DNA from: Chloroflexia bacterium
Lineage (GTDB): Bacteria > Chloroflexota > Chloroflexia > Thermomicrobiales > CFX8
Assembly (NCBI GenBank): GCA_030431755.1
Contig: JAUIIK010000048.1
Span: forward strand, 1-34,563
DNA length: 34,563 bases
Direction: 5' to 3'
In this document: in pieces, positions 3,729 through 34,563 of the stretch
Layout: each line of letters starts with the position of its first letter
Numbering within the stretch: position 1 is the first letter of the stretch
Made by a program: the position numbers and the translations under genes
Notes under the pieces: model-generated
Told to the model about the DNA's origin: nothing
What the model saw: only the letters and a program-made list of their open reading frames with translations
Databases searched by the model: none

Positions 3729-5126
3729 CTACACGCTTGCCGCCAGCAATGGCGACAGGCGGCCATGCCATGGGCCGTGGAGATCAACGGCGTGGGCGGC
3801 ACGGAGGACTGTCGCATCCTGCCAGGGTTTGCCGGCTAGCTGGAGTGATACTGGCACATCATGCTCGCCGAGTCCGACCGGAACGACGGCTGCCGGCCAG
3901 CCGAGGGTGTTGAAGGGGCCACAATAACGGCCGTTCTGCTCGACGATGCCAATCGGCGGGGCTTCGTGGGGCACGCCGGGGAGCGCGATCAGATCGATAT
4001 CCGCCAGCGTCGCCTCGATCTCCGCTCGGAGGGCTGCCCGCGCTTGCTGGATCTGGACGAATTCGACGGGGCTATAGGCATATGCGCCGATGAGCCGGTC
4101 GCGCGACCACTCCGAAACGTCATCCCAGCGATCGCGCAGGAAGCGCTCGTAGTAGGCGGCCGCTTCGATGTTGAGCACCGCCAGGTTGATCGTGTTCAGA
4201 TCGCGGAGCGCCGGGAGGGCTATCTCGATGACATCCGCGCCTGCCCCGGCGAGCGCGGCAACGCCGGCATCGACACCGGCGCGGACGGCCGGGGTCGGGT
4301 AATCATCACCCCAACCATCGTCAGTGACCTTTGCCACCCGCAGTCCCTCAACACCCTGGTCGAGGGCAGCCGCGTAGTCACCAACGCTGATCTGACGGGT
4401 GCGGCTGTCGCGCGGGTCGTAACCGGCCATGGCGTCGAGCATATGGGCGATGTCGCTGGTTGTCCGGGCCATCGGGCCGATGTGGTCAAGCGACCAGGAG
4501 AGCGTCTGCGCGCCATAGGCACTGACGAGACCGTGGGTCGGTTTGATCCCGGCCAGGCCGCAGAGCGCCGACGGCATCCGGATCGAGCCACCGGTGTCGG
4601 AGCCGGTCGCGCCGAAGCACATCCCGGCCGCCAATGCCGCGCCGGTGCCGCTTGATGAGCCGCCGGTATCACGCTCTCGGTTCCAGGGATTCTGGACGAC
4701 GCCGTAGTGGGCGTTGTTTGAGGCAGGCGAGTAGGCGAACTCCGGCATGTGGGTTTTGCCGATGATAACGCTGCCGGCAGCCTCCAACCGTTCGACCCCG
4801 GCGCTATCCTCATCAGCGACGCGGTCGGCCAGGACACGCGAACCGGCCGGGGTCGTCTCGCCCCGCATGTCCATCAGATCCTTGACCGCCAACGGGACGC
4901 CGTGGAGCGGTCCACGATAATCACCGGCTGCAATCTCGCGTTCGGCGCGTTGGGCCTGGTCGCGCGCCCGCGCTTCGGTGACGATGCGGAAGGCGTTGAC
5001 CTCGTCGTTGTGTGTGGCGATCTGATCCAGGCAGGCGTCGAGCGCTTCGACCGGCGAGACATCGCGTGCCTGGAGCTTCCCGGCAAGGTCGGTGAGCGAC
5101 AGCTTCAGCACATCAGGCGTCGCCAT
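3729..5126 (-). CDS. amidase-signature family amidase
   Basis: This 465-residue enzyme is a complete amidase-signature (AS) hydrolase. The Ser-cisSer-Lys triad is readable: Lys82 in PLAVKDLMD, Ser157 in DTGGSSSGTG and nucleophile Ser181 in GSDTGGSIRMP; the 24-residue spacing between the serines matches the family. It hydrolyses a carboxamide to acid and ammonia in the cytoplasm. AS enzymes range from GatA to AtzE/biuret-type amidases and fatty-acid amidases, and the substrate cannot be assigned. The ATG overlaps the end of the small upstream gene by 14 nt, with GGAGGAGG inside that gene, so translation is probably coupled. That arrangement recalls AtzG-AtzE and GatC-GatA pairs. A true GatA is less likely because no gatB is next to it. 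Confidence 0.9.
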   Translation of the reverse strand: MATPDVLKLSLTDLAGKLQARDVSPVEALDACLDQIATHNDEVNAFRIVTEARARDQAQRAEREIAAGDYRGPLHGVPLAVKDLMDMRGETTPAGSRVLADRVADEDSAGVERLEAAGSVIIGKTHMPEFAYSPASNNAHYGVVQNPWNRERDTGGSSSGTGAALAAGMCFGATGSDTGGSIRMPSALCGLAGIKPTHGLVSAYGAQTLSWSLDHIGPMARTTSDIAHMLDAMAGYDPRDSRTRQISVGDYAAALDQGVEGLRVAKVTDDGWGDDYPTPAVRAGVDAGVAALAGAGADVIEIALPALRDLNTINLAVLNIEAAAYYERFLRDRWDDVSEWSRDRLIGAYAYSPVEFVQIQQARAALRAEIEATLADIDLIALPGVPHEAPPIGIVEQNGRYCGPFNTLGWPAAVVPVGLGEHDVPVSLQLAGKPWQDATVLRAAHAVDLHGPWHGRLSPLLAASV

Positions 5127-5325
5127 TGCCGGCCTCCTCCGCGACGCGAGAGCGCAGGTAGTCGGGGTTGCTGTTGTGGAAGTCGAGCCGGCTCAGCAGC
5201 TCGTCGAGCGCGCGTATGCGGACGGCAATGTCGCGATCTACCCGCTCGATGGTCGCATCATCCGGCTCGACGCCAGCGGCCCGCATGCTGGCGAGCCAGC
5301 TGGCTTTGCGTTGTGGTGGTAGCAA
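5113..5325 (-). CDS. small AtzG/GatC-like partner of the downstream amidase (hypothetical)
   Basis: This small gene (70 residues) starts with TTG at 5325. AAGGAG lies exactly 7 nt upstream (5333-5338), which favours TTG over the in-frame ATG at 5349; that ATG falls in a dispersed repeat. The product is helical and charged (ASMRAAGVEPDDATIERV, then RIRALDELLSRLDF). Its stop overlaps the amidase start by 14 nt. Size, helix pattern and coupling to an AS amidase resemble GatC and AtzG, short proteins that wrap around and stabilise their amidase. No firm family signature can be read by eye, so this role is inferred from context. Confidence 0.6.
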   Translation of the reverse strand: MLPPQRKASWLASMRAAGVEPDDATIERVDRDIAVRIRALDELLSRLDFHNSNPDYLRSRVAEEAGNGDA

Positions 5326-5339
5326 TGTGGTGCTCCTTA

Positions 5340-5462
5340 CGGCCCTCATCCCCTAGCCCCTTCTCCCAATCCTGGGAGAAGGGGAATCGATTCGGGAGTC
5401 GCGATAGTTGTTCCTGAATTTCCTCCCCTCTCCCAGGATTGGGAGAGGGGCCGGGGGTGAGG
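5340..5462. repeat. inverted pair of dispersed palindromes (CTCTCCCAATCCTGGGAGAG family)
   Basis: Two copies lie in opposite orientation: 5340-5388 (CCCTCATCCCCTAGCCCC, then TTCTCCCAATCCTGGGAGAA) and about 5426-5462 (CTCTCCCAGGATTGGGAGAG, then a GGGGGTGAGGG flank). Each core is itself a palindrome. Further copies are at 9009-9050 and 23019-23058, with a variant at 23164-23212. The pair fills the gap between the rhodanese stop and the small amidase partner and could end or weaken transcription. Confidence 0.75.
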
Positions 5463-5491: not shown

Positions 5492-6352
5492 TCACCTGTT
5501 CCCTACTTCCACCGGCATATCATCCCGGTTACCCCACTCGGCCCAGGAGCGGTCGTAGTTGGCGACGTTGTTGTAGCCGACGAGGTAGAGGACGAACGTG
5601 CCGTGCGCCGCACGGATGCCGCCCTGTCAGTAGGGCACGATCTTCTTATCGCGTGGCACGCCAAGGTCGGTGAGGATGCGGGTGATCTCGGCGGCGGGCT
5701 TGAAGCGGGTGGCGTTGTCCCAGTCGACGAAATCGCGCCACTCGACGTAGATCGCGCCTGGGATGTGGCCCTCGCGCTGGTTGGACTCGTTCGGGGCCGG
5801 CTTCTCGCCGGTCCACTCCTCGATTGCGCGCACGTCGAGCGGGACGATCTCGTCGTTCTGGACGCCGGGCAGGATGACATCGCAGTTGGCGATCTTCTCC
5901 GGGTCGGTCTCGCTGCCGTCGATGGTGACGTTGCCGGGTGTGACGTCGGGGTGTTCCTTGACGACGGGGTGGCGGCTGGCAACCCAGCCAGGGTAGCCGC
6001 CGTTGAGGACCGCCGAATTCTCGAAGCCGTGGTACCAGAGTGCCCACCAGACGCGCGTCGCCAGGAGCCCGCCTTCGGAGTCGTAGAGGATGACCCGCGA
6101 GTCGTCATTGACGCCCAGACCACGCAGGATCTCCTGGGTCTGCGCCGCCGTGGCGACGCCTACGCCGGTCTCGGTGTTCCGGAAATAGGGGTGGATTGGC
6201 AGGATGCGAGCACTCGGGAGGATCGCCCGGCCCATGCGCATCTCAGGCCGGTCGCAGTCGATGATAACGACATCCGGGTCGTTCAGATGCTCGCTCAACC
6301 AGTCCGGCTCGACGAGTAGCTCGGGGCGGGTATAGGCGTTCGTTGCGGTCAT
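5492..6352 (-). CDS. two-domain rhodanese (thiosulfate sulfurtransferase-like) with in-frame TGA at the catalytic site; probable selenoprotein
   Basis: Read through TGA 5627-5629 the protein has 286 residues, the normal length of a tandem-domain rhodanese. Residues 15-130 form the inactive N-terminal domain (RVILYDSEGG, with Asp at the old active position, then GYPGWV). Residues 150-280 form the catalytic domain (LDVRAIEEWTG, GHIPGAIYVEW). The active loop reads IVPY-TGA-QGGIRAAHG, where the family has a Cys (PYCxGGxRA), so the TGA, residue 242, replaces the nucleophile. The frame then gives 44 more codons with typical endings (VLYLVGYNNVANYD, SWAEWGN) and TGA at 5492-5494; the last few residues run into a repeat. 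ATG 6352 follows AAGGAG by 11 nt and is preferred to GTG 6364. It lies 29 nt after the methyltransferase gene. Selenocysteine is the favoured reading; a sequencing error (TGC or TGT) or a fresh nonsense mutation cannot be excluded from one sequence. Confidence 0.85.
5601..5615 (-). promoter_or_regulatory. candidate bacterial SECIS hairpin
   Basis: Counting from the base after the TGA (5627-5629, minus strand), nucleotides 12-17 (CCGTGC) pair perfectly with 21-26 (GCACGG) around a GGC loop at 18-20. Bacterial SECIS elements are known to need a short stem-loop with a G among the first loop bases, about 16-37 nt after the UGA. As I recall, the E. coli fdhF element has its upper stem at about 12-28 and a GGUC loop at 19-22, nearly the same geometry. 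A chance hairpin in GC-rich codons remains possible. Confidence 0.6.
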
Positions 6353-6381
6353 CTCAGGGAGCACTCCTTTGCGCTAGCCCC

Positions 6382-7212
6382 TCAAGGCTTCGTGGCGACG
6401 GTAATGACATAGGGTATCGCGATCATAAAGCGATCCTCGCGGGCCGCCAACTCGACGGTCGAGAGCCAGCGTCGGGCCGTGCCCGGCTCGACCTGCCTGC
6501 CGGCTGTGGCGTGGTCGCTCCAGACCTCCGGCACGCCGGCGACGGTCGGAATGTCGGCGTCTTCGAAGACCTGTAGATAACCGCGCACCGTCTCGACATC
6601 CATCCCGGCCTCCCGGCAGGCATGGGCGGTTTCCCGGGCCGCCAGGGGCGAGGCGTAGACCTTCGCTGCCGAGGCCATGACTCGCGCCGTGACCGCCGGA
6701 TCGGGGCCGGCCGCCATGATCGTATAGGGATCATAGTCGGTCACGACCAGCCGCCCGCCGGGCACGAGCACCCGTTGCATCTCCGCGATGACCGGCCCGA
6801 GCGGCGCGACGTGCATCAGCAGCTTCTCGGCAACGACGGCGTCGAACATCTCGTTGCGGTAGGGCAGCTCGTGGCAATCGCCGACGGAGAAAGTCGAGTT
6901 CTTGATCCGCAGCAGCTCGGCCCGGCGTTCGGCGACGTCGATGAAGTGGGGGTTGAGATCAAGGCCGTGGATGCTGCCGTCGGAGGTGACGCGCTCGTGA
7001 AGCCGGTCGACGAGGACGCCGGGGCCGCAGCCGACCTCCAACACGACGCCACCGGGCAGCAGATAGAGCTCATCGAGCAACGCGCCCCGGAGGTTGCTGA
7101 AGCGCGGGTCGTCGAGCGTCTCAAGCAGCGCTGCGGCGATTGGTTTGGATGCCTCGGCCGACCCTTCGGCGAGCAGTTCGTAGAGATCGTTCCTGCCCGG
7201 TCTATTCCTCAC
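6382..7212 (-). CDS. class I SAM-dependent methyltransferase
   Basis: The 276-residue protein has a Rossmann methyltransferase core: motif I VLEVGCGPG (residues 57-65), acidic Asp85 at the end of strand 2 (IHGLDLNPHF), motif II region NSTFSVGDCHELPY, the FDAVVAEKLLMHV strand and the VLVPGGRLVVTDYDP loop. This pattern is that of the Methyltransf_11/UbiE-like group, which methylates small molecules; the substrate is unknown. The GTG at 7212 has AAGGGG about 6 nt upstream. The rhodanese gene follows 29 nt downstream, so the two are probably co-transcribed. The divergent OsmC gene starts 138 nt away on the other strand, so that gap should hold both promoters; I could not pick either with confidence. 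Confidence 0.87.
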   Translation of the reverse strand: MRNRPGRNDLYELLAEGSAEASKPIAAALLETLDDPRFSNLRGALLDELYLLPGGVVLEVGCGPGVLVDRLHERVTSDGSIHGLDLNPHFIDVAERRAELLRIKNSTFSVGDCHELPYRNEMFDAVVAEKLLMHVAPLGPVIAEMQRVLVPGGRLVVTDYDPYTIMAAGPDPAVTARVMASAAKVYASPLAARETAHACREAGMDVETVRGYLQVFEDADIPTVAGVPEVWSDHATAGRQVEPGTARRWLSTVELAAREDRFMIAIPYVITVATKP

Positions 7213-7350
7213 GATGCGCCCCTTAACATTGCTTCACGCTAACATGAGCGGGGCGGCGACGCCATGCCCCCAGACCCCGGCAAGGGGTACATAGACCAGC
7301 CCGTGTCATGGATGGCGCGGGCAAGAATAGATCCGAAAGGACGCAACACC

Positions 7351-7779
7351 ATGGCAGCAGATCGAAGCGCATCCGTAACCTGGCAGGGCAGTCTGATGGA
7401 AGGCTCTGGCGTTATCAACAATGTCACCAGCGGCGCGATCAGTAACCTCGACGTCAGCTGGCCGGCCCGGACGGAAGAGCCCGGCGGCAAGACCAGCCCG
7501 GAGGAACTCATCGCGGCGGCCCACGCGGCGTGCTACGCGATGGGACTCTCACACGGTCTCTCCGGCGCAGGCACACCGCCCCAGAAGCTCGATGTCTCGG
7601 CAACCTGCACCTTCGACCCGCCCAAGATCACCAAGATGGCCATCACTGTCACCGGCCAGGTCGACGGCATCGATCAGGCAGCATTCGAACAGGCCGCCCG
7701 GGAAGCCGCCGACGGCTGCCCCGTCTCCGGCGCGCTGAAGGGGAACGTTGAGATCGTCGTCTCGGCTACGTTGGAGTAG
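7351..7779 (+). CDS. OsmC/Ohr family peroxiredoxin-like protein
   Basis: This 142-residue protein is an OsmC-family member, thiol peroxidases that reduce organic hydroperoxides. The two characteristic cysteines are present: Cys61 in IAAAHAACYAMGLS and Cys123 in DGCPVSGAL, both encoded by TGC. ATG 7351 is chosen because GAAAGGA lies about 10 nt upstream and the protein then starts like the family (SASVTWQGSLMEGSG); an in-frame ATG at 7264 would add a 29-residue tail of non-coding appearance. It is cytoplasmic. It stands alone: repeats follow it, and the aldo/keto reductase begins 176 nt later. Confidence 0.9.
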   Translation: MAADRSASVTWQGSLMEGSGVINNVTSGAISNLDVSWPARTEEPGGKTSPEELIAAAHAACYAMGLSHGLSGAGTPPQKLDVSATCTFDPPKITKMAITVTGQVDGIDQAAFEQAAREAADGCPVSGALKGNVEIVVSATLE

Positions 7780-30218: not shown

Positions 30219-33200
30219 TTAGAAGCCGGTCCCGTCGTCGTCATCGTCGTCGAAGTCGTCTCCGACGAGGTCGTCCTCTTCGAGTGGCGGGGCGATGGTG
30301 TCGTCCGCGCTCTGGTCGCCCTCGACGATGTCGGGCTGTTCGATCACGACTTCTTCGATTTCTTCCGCGCTTTCCTGAGGCTGTTCCTGTCCAGACGCCT
30401 CCGGCTCGTCGCCGGTCTCGGGGCCGTTGAATTCGAGCGGTTCTTCGCCGGCCTCTTCGGCCCGCTGCTGCTCCTCGTCGGTCAGGAACTGCAAGTCTTC
30501 CTCAGACTCTTCGCCCGCGGAGTCATCTGCCGAAGTTCCCTCGGACTCGGCCGCGCCGCCTTCGGAGGCTTCGCCGCCAGGGCCGGTGTCGGCGTCGGCT
30601 GCGTTGCTCTCCTGGTCAGCCTCGGCAGCTTCGGTTTCGGGGGCGACCGCATCTTCATCAAGTTCAGCCGCCTGTTCCTGGGCCAGAGGCTCCGGCTCGA
30701 CCTGTGCCCAGTCCGGGTGGACTTCCAGCGTGCCGTCGTAGCGCAGGATGTAGCCCGCATCGACGTTGCTGCCGGTCGCGTGGTCGTTGACGAAGATCAC
30801 CCGGTCGCCGCCGACATTGTCCTGGACCATGACCGTGTAGTTCCCCTGGGAGAACTGGTGCATGTTGACGCCCCCGACGTTGTGGACGCCTTCGTACTGC
30901 CAGTCGCCCTGAGCCGGGCTCGGGTAGGTCATGCCGCCGTACTCGAAGTAGGCCGGTAGACCGTAGAAGACGGATTCCGGGGCGACGAGGCCGGCCTGTT
31001 CGGCTTCCATGTCCTGCCCGGTCTCCTGCGTCTCCGCCACCTCGGCCGGCTCGGTCTCCTCGGCAACCTCCTCGGCGGCCTCTTCTCCGGCGCCGTCGGC
31101 AGTCATCGCGGCGACTTGTACTTCGGCAACGCCGACACCCTGCGGGTTCTCGCCGTAGTATTCGCCGTCGTGGCCCATGTAGTAGCCGTTGGCGTCCTGG
31201 TTCAGGCTGTGGCGCGCTTCGAGGCCGTTCGCGCCGTAGTACTCGACCTGGACGAGGCCGTTCGGGTGTTCGATGACGGTGACCTGGTAGTCCCAGACGC
31301 CGTCGTTGTCGAGGTCGGCGTTGTAGTTGCGGGCGTAGCCGCCGTCGGCCGTGCCCGCCTGGTTGGTCATCTCGAAACGCTCGTCGGTTTCCGGGTTGGG
31401 CCAGCGGTCGTCGTCGAGGTAGTCCGGCGCGCCCTGCGGCAGGTAGCCGTCCGCTTCGAAGACGATCTCGGTTTCCTGGCCCTCGTACCCGGCGATGCCC
31501 ATGGGATTCTCGCCGTAGTAGTCGTAGTCGGAGACTGTCCCGTACTGATCCAGGTGGATACGCGCTTCAAGGCCGTCAGGGCCGGAGTACTCGACCTGCA
31601 CCTGGCCATTTGGATGTTCGATGACGGTGATCTGGTAGTCCCAGACGCCGTCGCCGGTCAGGTCGGCGTTGTAGACGCTGGCGTAGCCATCTTCTGGCGT
31701 GCCGGCCCGGTTAGTCATCTCGAAGCGCTCGTCGTCCTCGGGGTTCGGCCAGCGCTCGTCGATGAAGTACGCGCCCGCGCCGTCTGGGAAGTAGCCGTCG
31801 ACTTCGTAGTCGTCGCCGAGCGTACCTTCCTGCGGCAGCTCGTCGACCCACTGGCCGTCGTGCCAGTGCTCCAGGTTGTACTGACCGTTGCCGTAGACAT
31901 AGGCGCGCGCTTCCGCGCCATCGGCGTAGGGCGGGGTGAGAGCCCCGGCCGGCTCGTCGTGCCAGTAGAGCGTCTGCGTCCCGTCGGCGTTTTCCTGAAC
32001 GACGATTGACGAGCTGCCATGGTCGAAGACGTGGTAGACGGCGTCTCCGTAGGTCTCGGAGTGGTGGTACTGGTACTCCTGGTCGTACTCCGGGTTGACA
32101 TAGTTGCCGTAGAAGCGGCCTGGCAGGTCGTCGTGCAGCAGGTTGTAGACATACTGCGCGTCGTAGTCTCCGGTGTCGGCTTCCTCCGCGCCTTCTGTCG
32201 CATAGCCGTAGGCCGCGCCCTGGGTGTCCTGGCCGTACTCCCAGGCATAGCCCTGGTAGTAGCCGTTCGCATCCTGGGTGATGTTGATCCAGGCTGAGGC
32301 GGGCGACTGATAGTCCTCGTAGTACTGCACCTCGACCGTGCCATCCGGGCGCTCATTCACGACGATCTGGTAGTCGTGGTTCCCGTCACCATCGAGATCG
32401 GCGCGGTAGACCCGTGAGGAGATACCGCCGTACTCGTTGGTGTCATAGAGCTCGAAGCGTTCGTCCAGCTCCGGGTTGACCCACATCGGATCGCCGAAGT
32501 ACTCCGGCGCGCCGTCGGGCAGGTAACCGTCCGCTTCGATGGCGATCTGCTCGGCCGGCGGGTAGTCCGACCAATCCTGAGCATCGGGGTTCCAGTAGTT
32601 GATGTCGTACTGGCCGTTCTCATCGATCGACATCATGGCTGCGTTGGCGAGCTGTTCCGCGCCCACGGCGTAGGGCGACTCGACGTAGCCGTCGAACCAG
32701 TAGACGAGCGTATTGCCGGAACCGTCGGTGACGACCGCGATCGAATGCGTGCCGGCCTCGTTGTGGAACATGTAGGCGCTCTGGCCTGCCCCACCCATCG
32801 GGACGGTGTGGGAGAAGTGATAGTCCGGGTCGGCCTCGGGGTTCGCGTAGCCGCCGGGCAGCTCATCGGGCAGGTTGTCCGGCAGCAGGTCGTAGGCAGC
32901 TTGCTCGGCGTAGGCGTCCGCGTTGGGATCGGGCGCTTCGTACTCCGGCACGCCGTAGGTCTCGTCGCCTTCGGTGGTGACGTGATATTCGTAGTACTGG
33001 CCATCCGGGGACTGGGTCACCTCGATCGTGTGATACGGCGGCGAGCCGTCGACGTCGCGGTACTGCATCTCGATACGGCCGTCGGCGTACTCGACGACCT
33101 GGATGGCGTAGTCGGCTGAACCGTCGCCGTCGAAGTCGGCCGCGTACATGCGGGCCATATCGCCATCCAGGGTTTCCTGGGACTGGAAGAGGACGAAGCG

Positions 33201-34563
33201 CGGGTCCGTTTCCGGGTTGACCCACATCGGGTCGCCGAAGTACTCCGGCGCGCCCTCGGGCAGGTAGCCGTCGATTTCCTGCTCGTAGACCTCGGCCAGC
33301 GGCGGTGTTTCGACCCACTCGCTGGTCTCAGGGTCCCAGTAGGTCATCGCGTACTCGCCGCCAGCGATGTTCGCCATTGCCTGGAAACCATCGGTGACAT
33401 CTGCGCCCGCGAGCGTATCGACATGGCCTTCGAGCCAGTACATCGTCACGAAGCCGTCGGCCGGCTCGCCATAGACGATCGTCTGCGTGCCGTCGAGGCT
33501 GTGGAAGAAGTGCACCGGCGTGCCATCCATGTCGGCGGTATGGGAGTACTCGAAGTCGGGATGGTTCTCCGGGTTCGGATAGCCTTCGCCGAACTCTGCC
33601 GGGAGATCATCCGGGAGGAGGTCATAGGCTGCAGCCTCGGTGTAGAGGTTCTCTCCGACCTCATAGTCCGGCGGGGTCCAGTCGTCGGGGATCTCGTAGT
33701 TCCAGGCGTCGCCGTTCCAGGTGAGAACGAGGCCGTCGGGGTAGGTGACTTCGCGCGCGCCATCTTCGCCACGGTACCACTCGGAGCGGATCTGGCCCTC
33801 GTCGGTCTCCCAGAGCGCGATGACGCGGTCCTCGAGAACGATGACCTCGCTCGGTTCGCCCCAGGGCGCGTCTGGGTGGTAGGGGTCATAGACGCCCGCC
33901 CCATCGACATCGTAGATGCCGTACTGCGGCATGGCGTTGACTGGCAGGGCGTCCGGCTCGGTGACCCATGCGCCATCGACATACTCGACCGTTGCCTTGT
34001 ACTCGACGTAGCCATCGGTATAGCCACCTTCGGAGTACCAGGTGATCGTCTCACTGCCGTCGGCGTTGCGGACGATCATTGCCCGGCCGCCGCCGAAGGT
34101 GTAGACGTTCGGGGCCTGATTCTCGCCGGGCGGATCCGGCTCGCCGTAGAGCACATACGGGTGATCGAAGTCGTAGTTGTCGTCGTAGTGCTCGGCCCAG
34201 GCGGGATCGTAGTCGCCGTCGTATGCGTCGTCGAGCTCCTCGTAGCCAGGGATGTCGTCAACGGTGATCGTCTCGTACCCGCCATCCTGGTCGAGCTTGA
34301 GGTAGTTATAGTCCGGACCTTCGCCCTCACGGAGATAGGCGTTGCCGTACTCATCGACCTGTAGCAGAACCGGCATCGGGTAGTCGCCGGCCGGCGTTTC
34401 ATTGCCGTACTCGTCGACGAAGTAGGCCTGGCCATCCTCGTAGAGCTTGACCTGGTAGCCCAGGTCGGTCTCGACTGTCACCCAGCCCGCGTTGGCGTCC
34501 CAGGCGACGGTGCGCGGGTAGTCATAGTCAGCGTCATACGGCTCGTAGTCATAGTCGGGAATG
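30219..34563 (-). CDS. giant acidic tandem-repeat protein with DxDxDG motifs (5' end outside window)
   Basis: At least 1447 residues are visible; the frame is open to the window edge, so GTG 34481 is not the start. The protein is very rich in Asp, Glu, Tyr and Gly. A module of about 245 residues occurs three times. Part A starts YDLLPDDLP/YNLLHDDLP (near 33632, 32899, 32153) and carries Y.NPE..P.Y..SHT. Part B starts GYLP(E/D)GAPEYF (near 33274, 32533, 31803) and carries a calcium-type motif: DFDGDGSADY, DLDGDGNHDY, DLTGDGVWDY. A fourth B copy (31453, DLDNDGVWDY) follows directly. Then come acidic low-complexity stretches around a small domain (VFYGLPAYFEYGGMTYPSP) and a poly-Asp end (DDDDDDGTGF). 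No family recognised; it is probably exported or at the surface and binds calcium, but no signal or anchor is visible here. Confidence 0.85.
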   Translation of the reverse strand, partial: IPDYDYEPYDADYDYPRTVAWDANAGWVTVETDLGYQVKLYEDGQAYFVDEYGNETPAGDYPMPVLLQVDEYGNAYLREGEGPDYNYLKLDQDGGYETITVDDIPGYEELDDAYDGDYDPAWAEHYDDNYDFDHPYVLYGEPDPPGENQAPNVYTFGGGRAMIVRNADGSETITWYSEGGYTDGYVEYKATVEYVDGAWVTEPDALPVNAMPQYGIYDVDGAGVYDPYHPDAPWGEPSEVIVLEDRVIALWETDEGQIRSEWYRGEDGAREVTYPDGLVLTWNGDAWNYEIPDDWTPPDYEVGENLYTEAAAYDLLPDDLPAEFGEGYPNPENHPDFEYSHTADMDGTPVHFFHSLDGTQTIVYGEPADGFVTMYWLEGHVDTLAGADVTDGFQAMANIAGGEYAMTYWDPETSEWVETPPLAEVYEQEIDGYLPEGAPEYFGDPMWVNPETDPRFVLFQSQETLDGDMARMYAADFDGDGSADYAIQVVEYADGRIEMQYRDVDGSPPYHTIEVTQSPDGQYYEYHVTTEGDETYGVPEYEAPDPNADAYAEQAAYDLLPDNLPDELPGGYANPEADPDYHFSHTVPMGGAGQSAYMFHNEAGTHSIAVVTDGSGNTLVYWFDGYVESPYAVGAEQLANAAMMSIDENGQYDINYWNPDAQDWSDYPPAEQIAIEADGYLPDGAPEYFGDPMWVNPELDERFELYDTNEYGGISSRVYRADLDGDGNHDYQIVVNERPDGTVEVQYYEDYQSPASAWINITQDANGYYQGYAWEYGQDTQGAAYGYATEGAEEADTGDYDAQYVYNLLHDDLPGRFYGNYVNPEYDQEYQYHHSETYGDAVYHVFDHGSSSIVVQENADGTQTLYWHDEPAGALTPPYADGAEARAYVYGNGQYNLEHWHDGQWVDELPQEGTLGDDYEVDGYFPDGAGAYFIDERWPNPEDDERFEMTNRAGTPEDGYASVYNADLTGDGVWDYQITVIEHPNGQVQVEYSGPDGLEARIHLDQYGTVSDYDYYGENPMGIAGYEGQETEIVFEADGYLPQGAPDYLDDDRWPNPETDERFEMTNQAGTADGGYARNYNADLDNDGVWDYQVTVIEHPNGLVQVEYYGANGLEARHSLNQDANGYYMGHDGEYYGENPQGVGVAEVQVAAMTADGAGEEAAEEVAEETEPAEVAETQETGQDMEAEQAGLVAPESVFYGLPAYFEYGGMTYPSPAQGDWQYEGVHNVGGVNMHQFSQGNYTVMVQDNVGGDRVIFVNDHATGSNVDAGYILRYDGTLEVHPDWAQVEPEPLAQEQAAELDEDAVAPETEAAEADQESNAADADTGPGGEASEGGAAESEGTSADDSAGEESEEDLQFLTDEEQQRAEEAGEEPLEFNGPETGDEPEASGQEQPQESAEEIEEVVIEQPDIVEGDQSADDTIAPPLEEDDLVGDDFDDDDDDGTGF

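Follow-up and report, generated by a model that had tools for sequence, protein, structure and literature searches.

A two-domain rhodanese of the Chloroflexota that almost certainly carries selenocysteine in place of the catalytic cysteine

Introduction

Is an in-frame TGA codon at the active site of a bacterial rhodanese gene a lesion, or is it read as selenocysteine (Sec)? This question is raised by a locus in the window, a stretch of 34,563 nucleotides that constitutes contig 251 (JAUIIK010000048.1) of a 5.1-Mb draft genome of a Chloroflexia bacterium (order Thermomicrobiales, family CFX8; 272 contigs, 97% complete). A first-pass annotation, made from the sequence alone, had proposed a probable selenocysteine rhodanese here, a proposal that is strongly supported by the relatives of the gene, the sel genes and a frozen hairpin described below. 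We refer to the gene and its product as Sec-rhodanese; its main features in window coordinates are as follows.

5495..6352, minus strand: Sec-rhodanese coding sequence, 286 residues, two rhodanese domains; terminal TGA at 5492-5494, putative Sec at residue 242
5531..5857, minus strand: C-terminal (catalytic) rhodanese domain, residues 166-274 (Pfam PF00581)
5627..5629, minus strand: in-frame TGA, read as Sec, in the catalytic-Cys column of the C-terminal rhodanese domain
6364..6368, minus strand: AGGAG, a likely ribosome-binding site 11 nt upstream of the ATG (read from the sequence)

Results

A TGA codon in the catalytic column of a tandem rhodanese

Codon 242 (TGA) is the sole internal stop of the 286-codon frame and is followed by 44 codons and the TGA terminator; the active-site motif reads IVPY-U-QGGIRAAHG, and the base 3' of the TGA is C. 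The G+C content at third codon positions is 0.88 before the TGA and 0.86 after it. The details given in the first-pass annotation, among them the GC-rich third positions and the C after the TGA, are all correct. The 20 nt upstream of the ATG read GCAAAGGAGTGCTCCCTGAG, with the AGGAG placed within the 29-nt gap that follows the methyltransferase gene.

The product is a tandem rhodanese, in which PF00581 matches two stretches (101.5 bits). Its AlphaFold2 model has a pLDDT of 94.9, and the best PDB match is 1uar (TM-score of 0.89 over 287 columns; sequence E-value of 1e-40). The TGA falls in the same alignment column as the catalytic Cys in two solved rhodaneses, 1uar and 3hzu, in agreement with the earlier suggestion that the TGA stands where two-domain rhodaneses have their nucleophile. 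No NCBIfam model scores over its cut-off on this protein; the best full-length match, SseA (NF008557), reaches 129.7 bits, below the equivalog cut-off of 250. Because its catalytic column holds UGA, we consider the protein a Sec variant of the two-domain rhodanese family rather than a standard Cys member. Ordinary gene calling ends Sec-rhodaneses one residue short of the active site, which makes this a systematic annotation error.

The TGA and the sequence after it are conserved

Each of the four other family genomes has an ortholog with exactly one TGA, at the same codon; identity to the window protein is 52-67% in the genome search and approximately 50 to 67% in pairwise comparison. In these four orthologs and in the window protein, the active-site motif is UQGG or UQSG. 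Identity among these orthologs is 58-79% after the TGA and 47-67% before it, and dN is lower than dS after the TGA in every family pair, with many dS values near saturation (for the window sequence and that of G002, dN is 0.19 and dS is 0.79). These results bear out the earlier impression that the codons after the TGA look selected: dN is well below dS in all pairs, identity is higher after the TGA, and the relatives keep both the TGA column and the downstream sequence. Other homologs have Cys in this column, as an alignment proposed with the first-pass annotation now shows. The residues Y241, Sec242, Q243, G245, R247, A248, A249 and H250 are invariant in 33 Sec homologs, several of them being fixed by the motif used to collect the sequences.

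Of 158 genomes examined from the class, only the five family genomes contain the Sec motif. Two further TGA flags, in G003:C434 and G047:C429, proved to be normal terminators inside the match, and both of these proteins have Cys. The genome of the window also encodes a Cys paralog (G000:C217:4331-5173) with the motif YCQGGVRAAH, which is 37% identical to Sec-rhodanese and uses other synonymous codons; thus, a single genome offers a natural Sec/Cys pair for enzyme comparison.

A bacterial SECIS hairpin is frozen at synonymous sites

Downstream of the TGA lies a hairpin that the first-pass annotation had missed.

5601..5615, minus strand: hairpin CCGUGC-GGC-GCACGG, the bacterial SECIS, spanning nt 15-29 (with the U of the UGA as nt 1); apical loop GGC at 5607-5609

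It has a 6-bp stem and a 3-nt loop that starts with GG, and 17 nt separate the UGA from the loop. The published rules for bacterial SECIS elements (bSECIS) call for a loop of 3-9 nt, a stem of 4-16 bp, a G in the first two loop positions, a UGA-to-loop distance of 16-37 nt and a minimum free energy of -7.5 kcal/mol or lower (PMC13188914). The hairpin agrees with every one of these constraints, with -8.0 kcal/mol on its own and -17.5 kcal/mol for the 48-nt stretch.

The residues RAAH are encoded by CGT GCG GCG CAC in 107 of 111 distinct Sec sequences, the variants being three with CAT and one with CGC. As a control, Cys homologs were collected by the same pattern with TGY in place of the TGA: among the 16 that share the RAAH residues, 14 different codon sets occur, and none of the 16 has all four inner base pairs of the stem. 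The choice of CGT is not a matter of codon bias, because CGT makes up only 9% of the Arg codons in the window. The outermost pair (nt 15 and 29) combines the third base of an Ile, Val or Met codon with the second base of a Gly, Val or Ala codon, and both change together: the 111 Sec sequences have CG in 100 cases, GC in three, AT in three and mispairs in five. The covariation score calculated from 20 sequences was 0.184, compared with a shuffled mean of 0.067; none of 500 shuffles scored as high, and no slid register equaled it. Since these 20 sequences were picked to include variants, the pair counts over all 111 are the fairer measure. Folding z-scores of the 48-nt stretch against shuffles were unremarkable (-1.9 to +0.2), and in L011, a member of the family, part of the 6-bp stem is open in the minimum-energy fold. 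Because the single-fold z-scores were uninformative, we base the case for the SECIS on the frozen codons, the covariation and the control with Cys homologs. This freezing of nt 15-29 at synonymous sites is the strongest evidence for Sec, and the strict signature can be used as a search tag.

The genome encodes the Sec machinery

The first-pass annotation had proposed a search of the same genome for selA, selB, selC and selD, and all four are present. There is one tRNA-Sec gene (78 bits against an Rfam cut-off of 47; ARAGORN identifies it as SeC(tca)), and SelA, SelB and SelD score 506, 318 and 363 bits, respectively, all over their cut-offs. The machinery alone proves little, because SelB is over its cut-off in 45 of the 61 genomes of the order.

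The selD gene of this genome (G000:C13:10733-11668, minus strand) has an in-frame TGA of its own, in the motif ASTAGUASKL, at the position that Sec or Cys usually occupies in SelD proteins. The selenophosphate synthetase is thus probably itself a selenoprotein in this genome, judging from its sequence.

Sec-rhodanese is widespread and forms one clade

A scan of 84,980 species, one genome each, with a Sec-motif pattern that left third codon positions free, except for C or T in the His codon, gave at least 116 matching loci. Among the matches listed, 115 of 116 encode Sec-rhodanese; the exception, in Paenibacillus, is a chance match. These counts include two loci on the same contigs as the orthologs in the family genomes G001 and G002 (L126 and L108, respectively). 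Most of the matches listed come from Chloroflexota, namely SAR202 and Dehalococcoidia, and include the complete chromosome of Candidatus Lucifugimonas marina; other labels among them are Binatota, Tectomicrobia/Entotheonella, Gemmatimonadetes and Deltaproteobacteria. These minority labels may reflect binning errors, because most matches are metagenome bins. What was a sparse metagenomic prediction in 2005 has become a clearly delimited gene family, of which more than 110 members are named and assembled.

A tree of 138 rows has a well-supported branch (SH-aLRT of 96) that separates all 94 Sec proteins, together with six nested Cys proteins, from the rest, and parsimony gives four Sec/Cys state changes in all. 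Two of the nested Cys groups, belonging to families f50 and f66, fit the motif and no longer have the frozen codons; the third case is a single long-branched row (L031) whose placement is unsure. In f50, a family of Chloroflexota, one member (G443) has the Sec motif and two others (G245 and G336) have Cys and lack the hairpin codons, which suggests a fairly recent change from Sec to Cys. The Sec forms thus make up a single clade, within which a few lineages later went back to Cys. These reversions, together with the Sec/Cys paralog pair in one genome, make the question of why a sulfurtransferase needs selenium directly testable.

The five family proteins form a clade (support of 100) that is joined to the Sec side of the tree by a long stem nested within it, whereas the Cys paralog groups with the Cys proteins of its own order. 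For this reason, horizontal acquisition of the Sec gene by the family is likely; with a midpoint root and a support of only 81 for the inner branch, it is not proven.

Sec-rhodanese lies in a gene cluster conserved within the family

Three genes flank Sec-rhodanese on the same strand.

6382..7212, minus strand: SAM-dependent methyltransferase, weakly ArsM/UbiE-like (Pfam Methyltransf_31), 29 nt upstream of Sec-rhodanese
5113..5349, minus strand: small ORF (78 amino acids) located between Sec-rhodanese and the amidase gene, with whose start it shares 14 nt
3729..5126, minus strand: amidase-signature enzyme, the downstream partner; best NCBIfam match AtzE, below cut-off

The order methyltransferase, Sec-rhodanese, small ORF and amidase, all on one strand, is the same in five of five family genomes, with a similar small frame at the place of the small ORF in each of the other four. 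The small ORF has no significant Pfam match. The methyltransferase and the amidase belong to broad families, all of their NCBIfam scores are below cut-off, and neither names a sulfur pathway. Outside the family, the cluster is not kept at Sec loci, and neighbor clustering revealed no common sulfur or selenium partner there. An undescribed pathway made up of these four genes, in which Sec transfers S or Se where the Cys paralog cannot, for example to form or cleave a thio- or seleno-amide metabolite, is an unlikely reading that we put forward tentatively.

Several other elements of the window deserve mention. The 365-nt gap between Sec-rhodanese and the amidase holds, in addition to the small ORF, a short inverted repeat at 5355-5460, CCCCTCTCCCAATCCTGGGAGAGGGG ... 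CCCCTTCTCCCAGGATTGGGAGAAGGGG, which looks like a dispersed intergenic repeat. Near the methyltransferase, a divergent gene at 7264-7779 (plus strand) encodes an OsmC-family peroxiredoxin and has no in-frame TGA; OsmC is a selenoprotein family elsewhere. At 30219-34481 (minus strand) there is an open frame of 1,420 codons with no Pfam match above cut-off and weak matches to Tcp10_C and FG-GAP.

Discussion

Proposed mechanism and alternatives

The position of the TGA, its conservation, the SECIS, the machinery and the predicted fold, all of them read from sequence, indicate that the active site almost certainly carries Sec. Our explanation of the locus as a whole, to which we assign a probability of roughly 0.93, is that the gene encodes a two-domain rhodanese (a COG2897-type sulfurtransferase) with Sec in place of the catalytic Cys, inserted through SelB and the hairpin and used in sulfur transfer. 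We infer Sec insertion itself, the sulfurtransferase activity and the nature of donor and acceptor along the following lines. When the ribosome meets the UGA at 5627-5629, SelB loaded with Sec-tRNA(Sec) would bind the hairpin 15-29 nt downstream, and Sec would be inserted; failing this, the protein would end before its active site. The Sec selenolate would be cradled by the six-residue loop U-Q-G-G-I-R and would most likely accept a sulfane sulfur, with thiosulfate or 3-mercaptopyruvate among the conceivable donors, and the resulting enzyme-Se-S(-) intermediate would then hand the sulfur to an acceptor. Six-residue cradles are typical of sulfurtransferases with the rhodanese fold, which makes sulfur transfer via a Se-S intermediate the most likely chemistry.

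Instead of sulfur, the enzyme might carry selenium, as a perselenide (Se-Se) or by delivering selenide, for example to SelD. Rhodanese-fold proteins can bind selenium, and Sec is a plausible ligand. However, SelB scores over its cut-off in 45 of the 61 related genomes, of which no more than the five from the family contain the Sec motif; thus, selenium supply does not generally involve Sec-rhodanese. Nor do the other loci share a selenium-gene neighbor, and we regard a selenium carrier as improbable. Alternatively, the UGA may be decoded by the Sec machinery but serve mainly as a selenium-dependent switch, in which the 241-residue truncated form made in the absence of selenium, or polarity on downstream genes, is what matters. 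The conserved cluster does place genes downstream, and the Cys paralog could take over the reaction when selenium runs short; on the other hand, most Sec homologs outside the family lack a conserved cluster and the truncated form gives no sign of separate constraint, so that such a role is highly improbable.

Neither of the remaining explanations invokes Sec. That UGA is read as Trp, Gly or Cys throughout the genome is scarcely credible here, although UGA reassignment does occur in other bacterial lineages: TGA also serves as a normal stop, both the methyltransferase gene and the rhodanese gene itself terminating in it, tRNA-Sec, SelA, SelB and SelD are all encoded, the homologs have Cys in the TGA column, and the hairpin would have no role. 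A nonsense mutation or sequencing error in one codon of a Cys rhodanese, for which a single base (TGA versus TGC or TGT) in a draft assembly would suffice, is already refuted by the sharing of the TGA among five independent assemblies at 50-67% protein identity, as well as by its presence in at least 115 named loci of several phyla and the low dN relative to dS after it; the first-pass annotation had rightly considered such a chance event unlikely.

Comparison with known systems

The reading of the gene as a Sec-dependent two-domain rhodanese can be set against its closest known relatives. The Thermus thermophilus rhodanese (1uar) and the mycobacterial CysA/SseA proteins (3aay and 3hzu) have the same two-domain fold (TM-scores of 0.88-0.89) and share with Sec-rhodanese the place of the catalytic residue, the six-residue loop and the C-terminal NYDxSWxEWGN; however, they have Cys in a CRI(A/G)ER loop instead of U-QGGIR, at approximately 30% identity. 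The E. coli 3-mercaptopyruvate sulfurtransferase SseA (1urh) also has a Cys active site, with another loop. Two NCBIfam models, the rhodanese-related (seleno)protein NF041203 and TsoB (NF045694), combine a rhodanese domain with a selenoprotein, as Sec-rhodanese does, but the former describes a short CxU-type protein (34 for Sec-rhodanese against a cut-off of 115) and the latter a DsbD fusion (18 against 805).

The closest counterparts are themselves predictions. Three Sec rhodanese genes of COG2897 were predicted from the Sargasso Sea in 2005 (PMC1088965), and a Sec rhodanese was also predicted in the related GOS data (PMC2398784), so the statement in the first-pass annotation that such selenoproteins had been predicted from metagenomes was correct. 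This kind was catalogued in 2026 as "rhodanese-like form 4" with a UxxG motif (accessions MCY3690685.1 and MQG53192.1; PMC13188914) and has been described as SseA-type (PMC9312934). The open-access literature searched yielded no experimental work on a Sec rhodanese, and the kind thus appears to have been predicted before but never experimentally characterized. The window protein, which we matched to form 4 by COG, motif and description, agrees with all of these in its COG-level family, Sec for the catalytic Cys, the UxxG motif (here UQGG) and a predicted bSECIS. Whereas the Sargasso and GOS cases are a handful of marine metagenome sequences, the present one is an intact gene in a different class of Chloroflexota; what is new here is the breadth of the family, its single frozen SECIS, the reversions to Cys and the conserved gene cluster.
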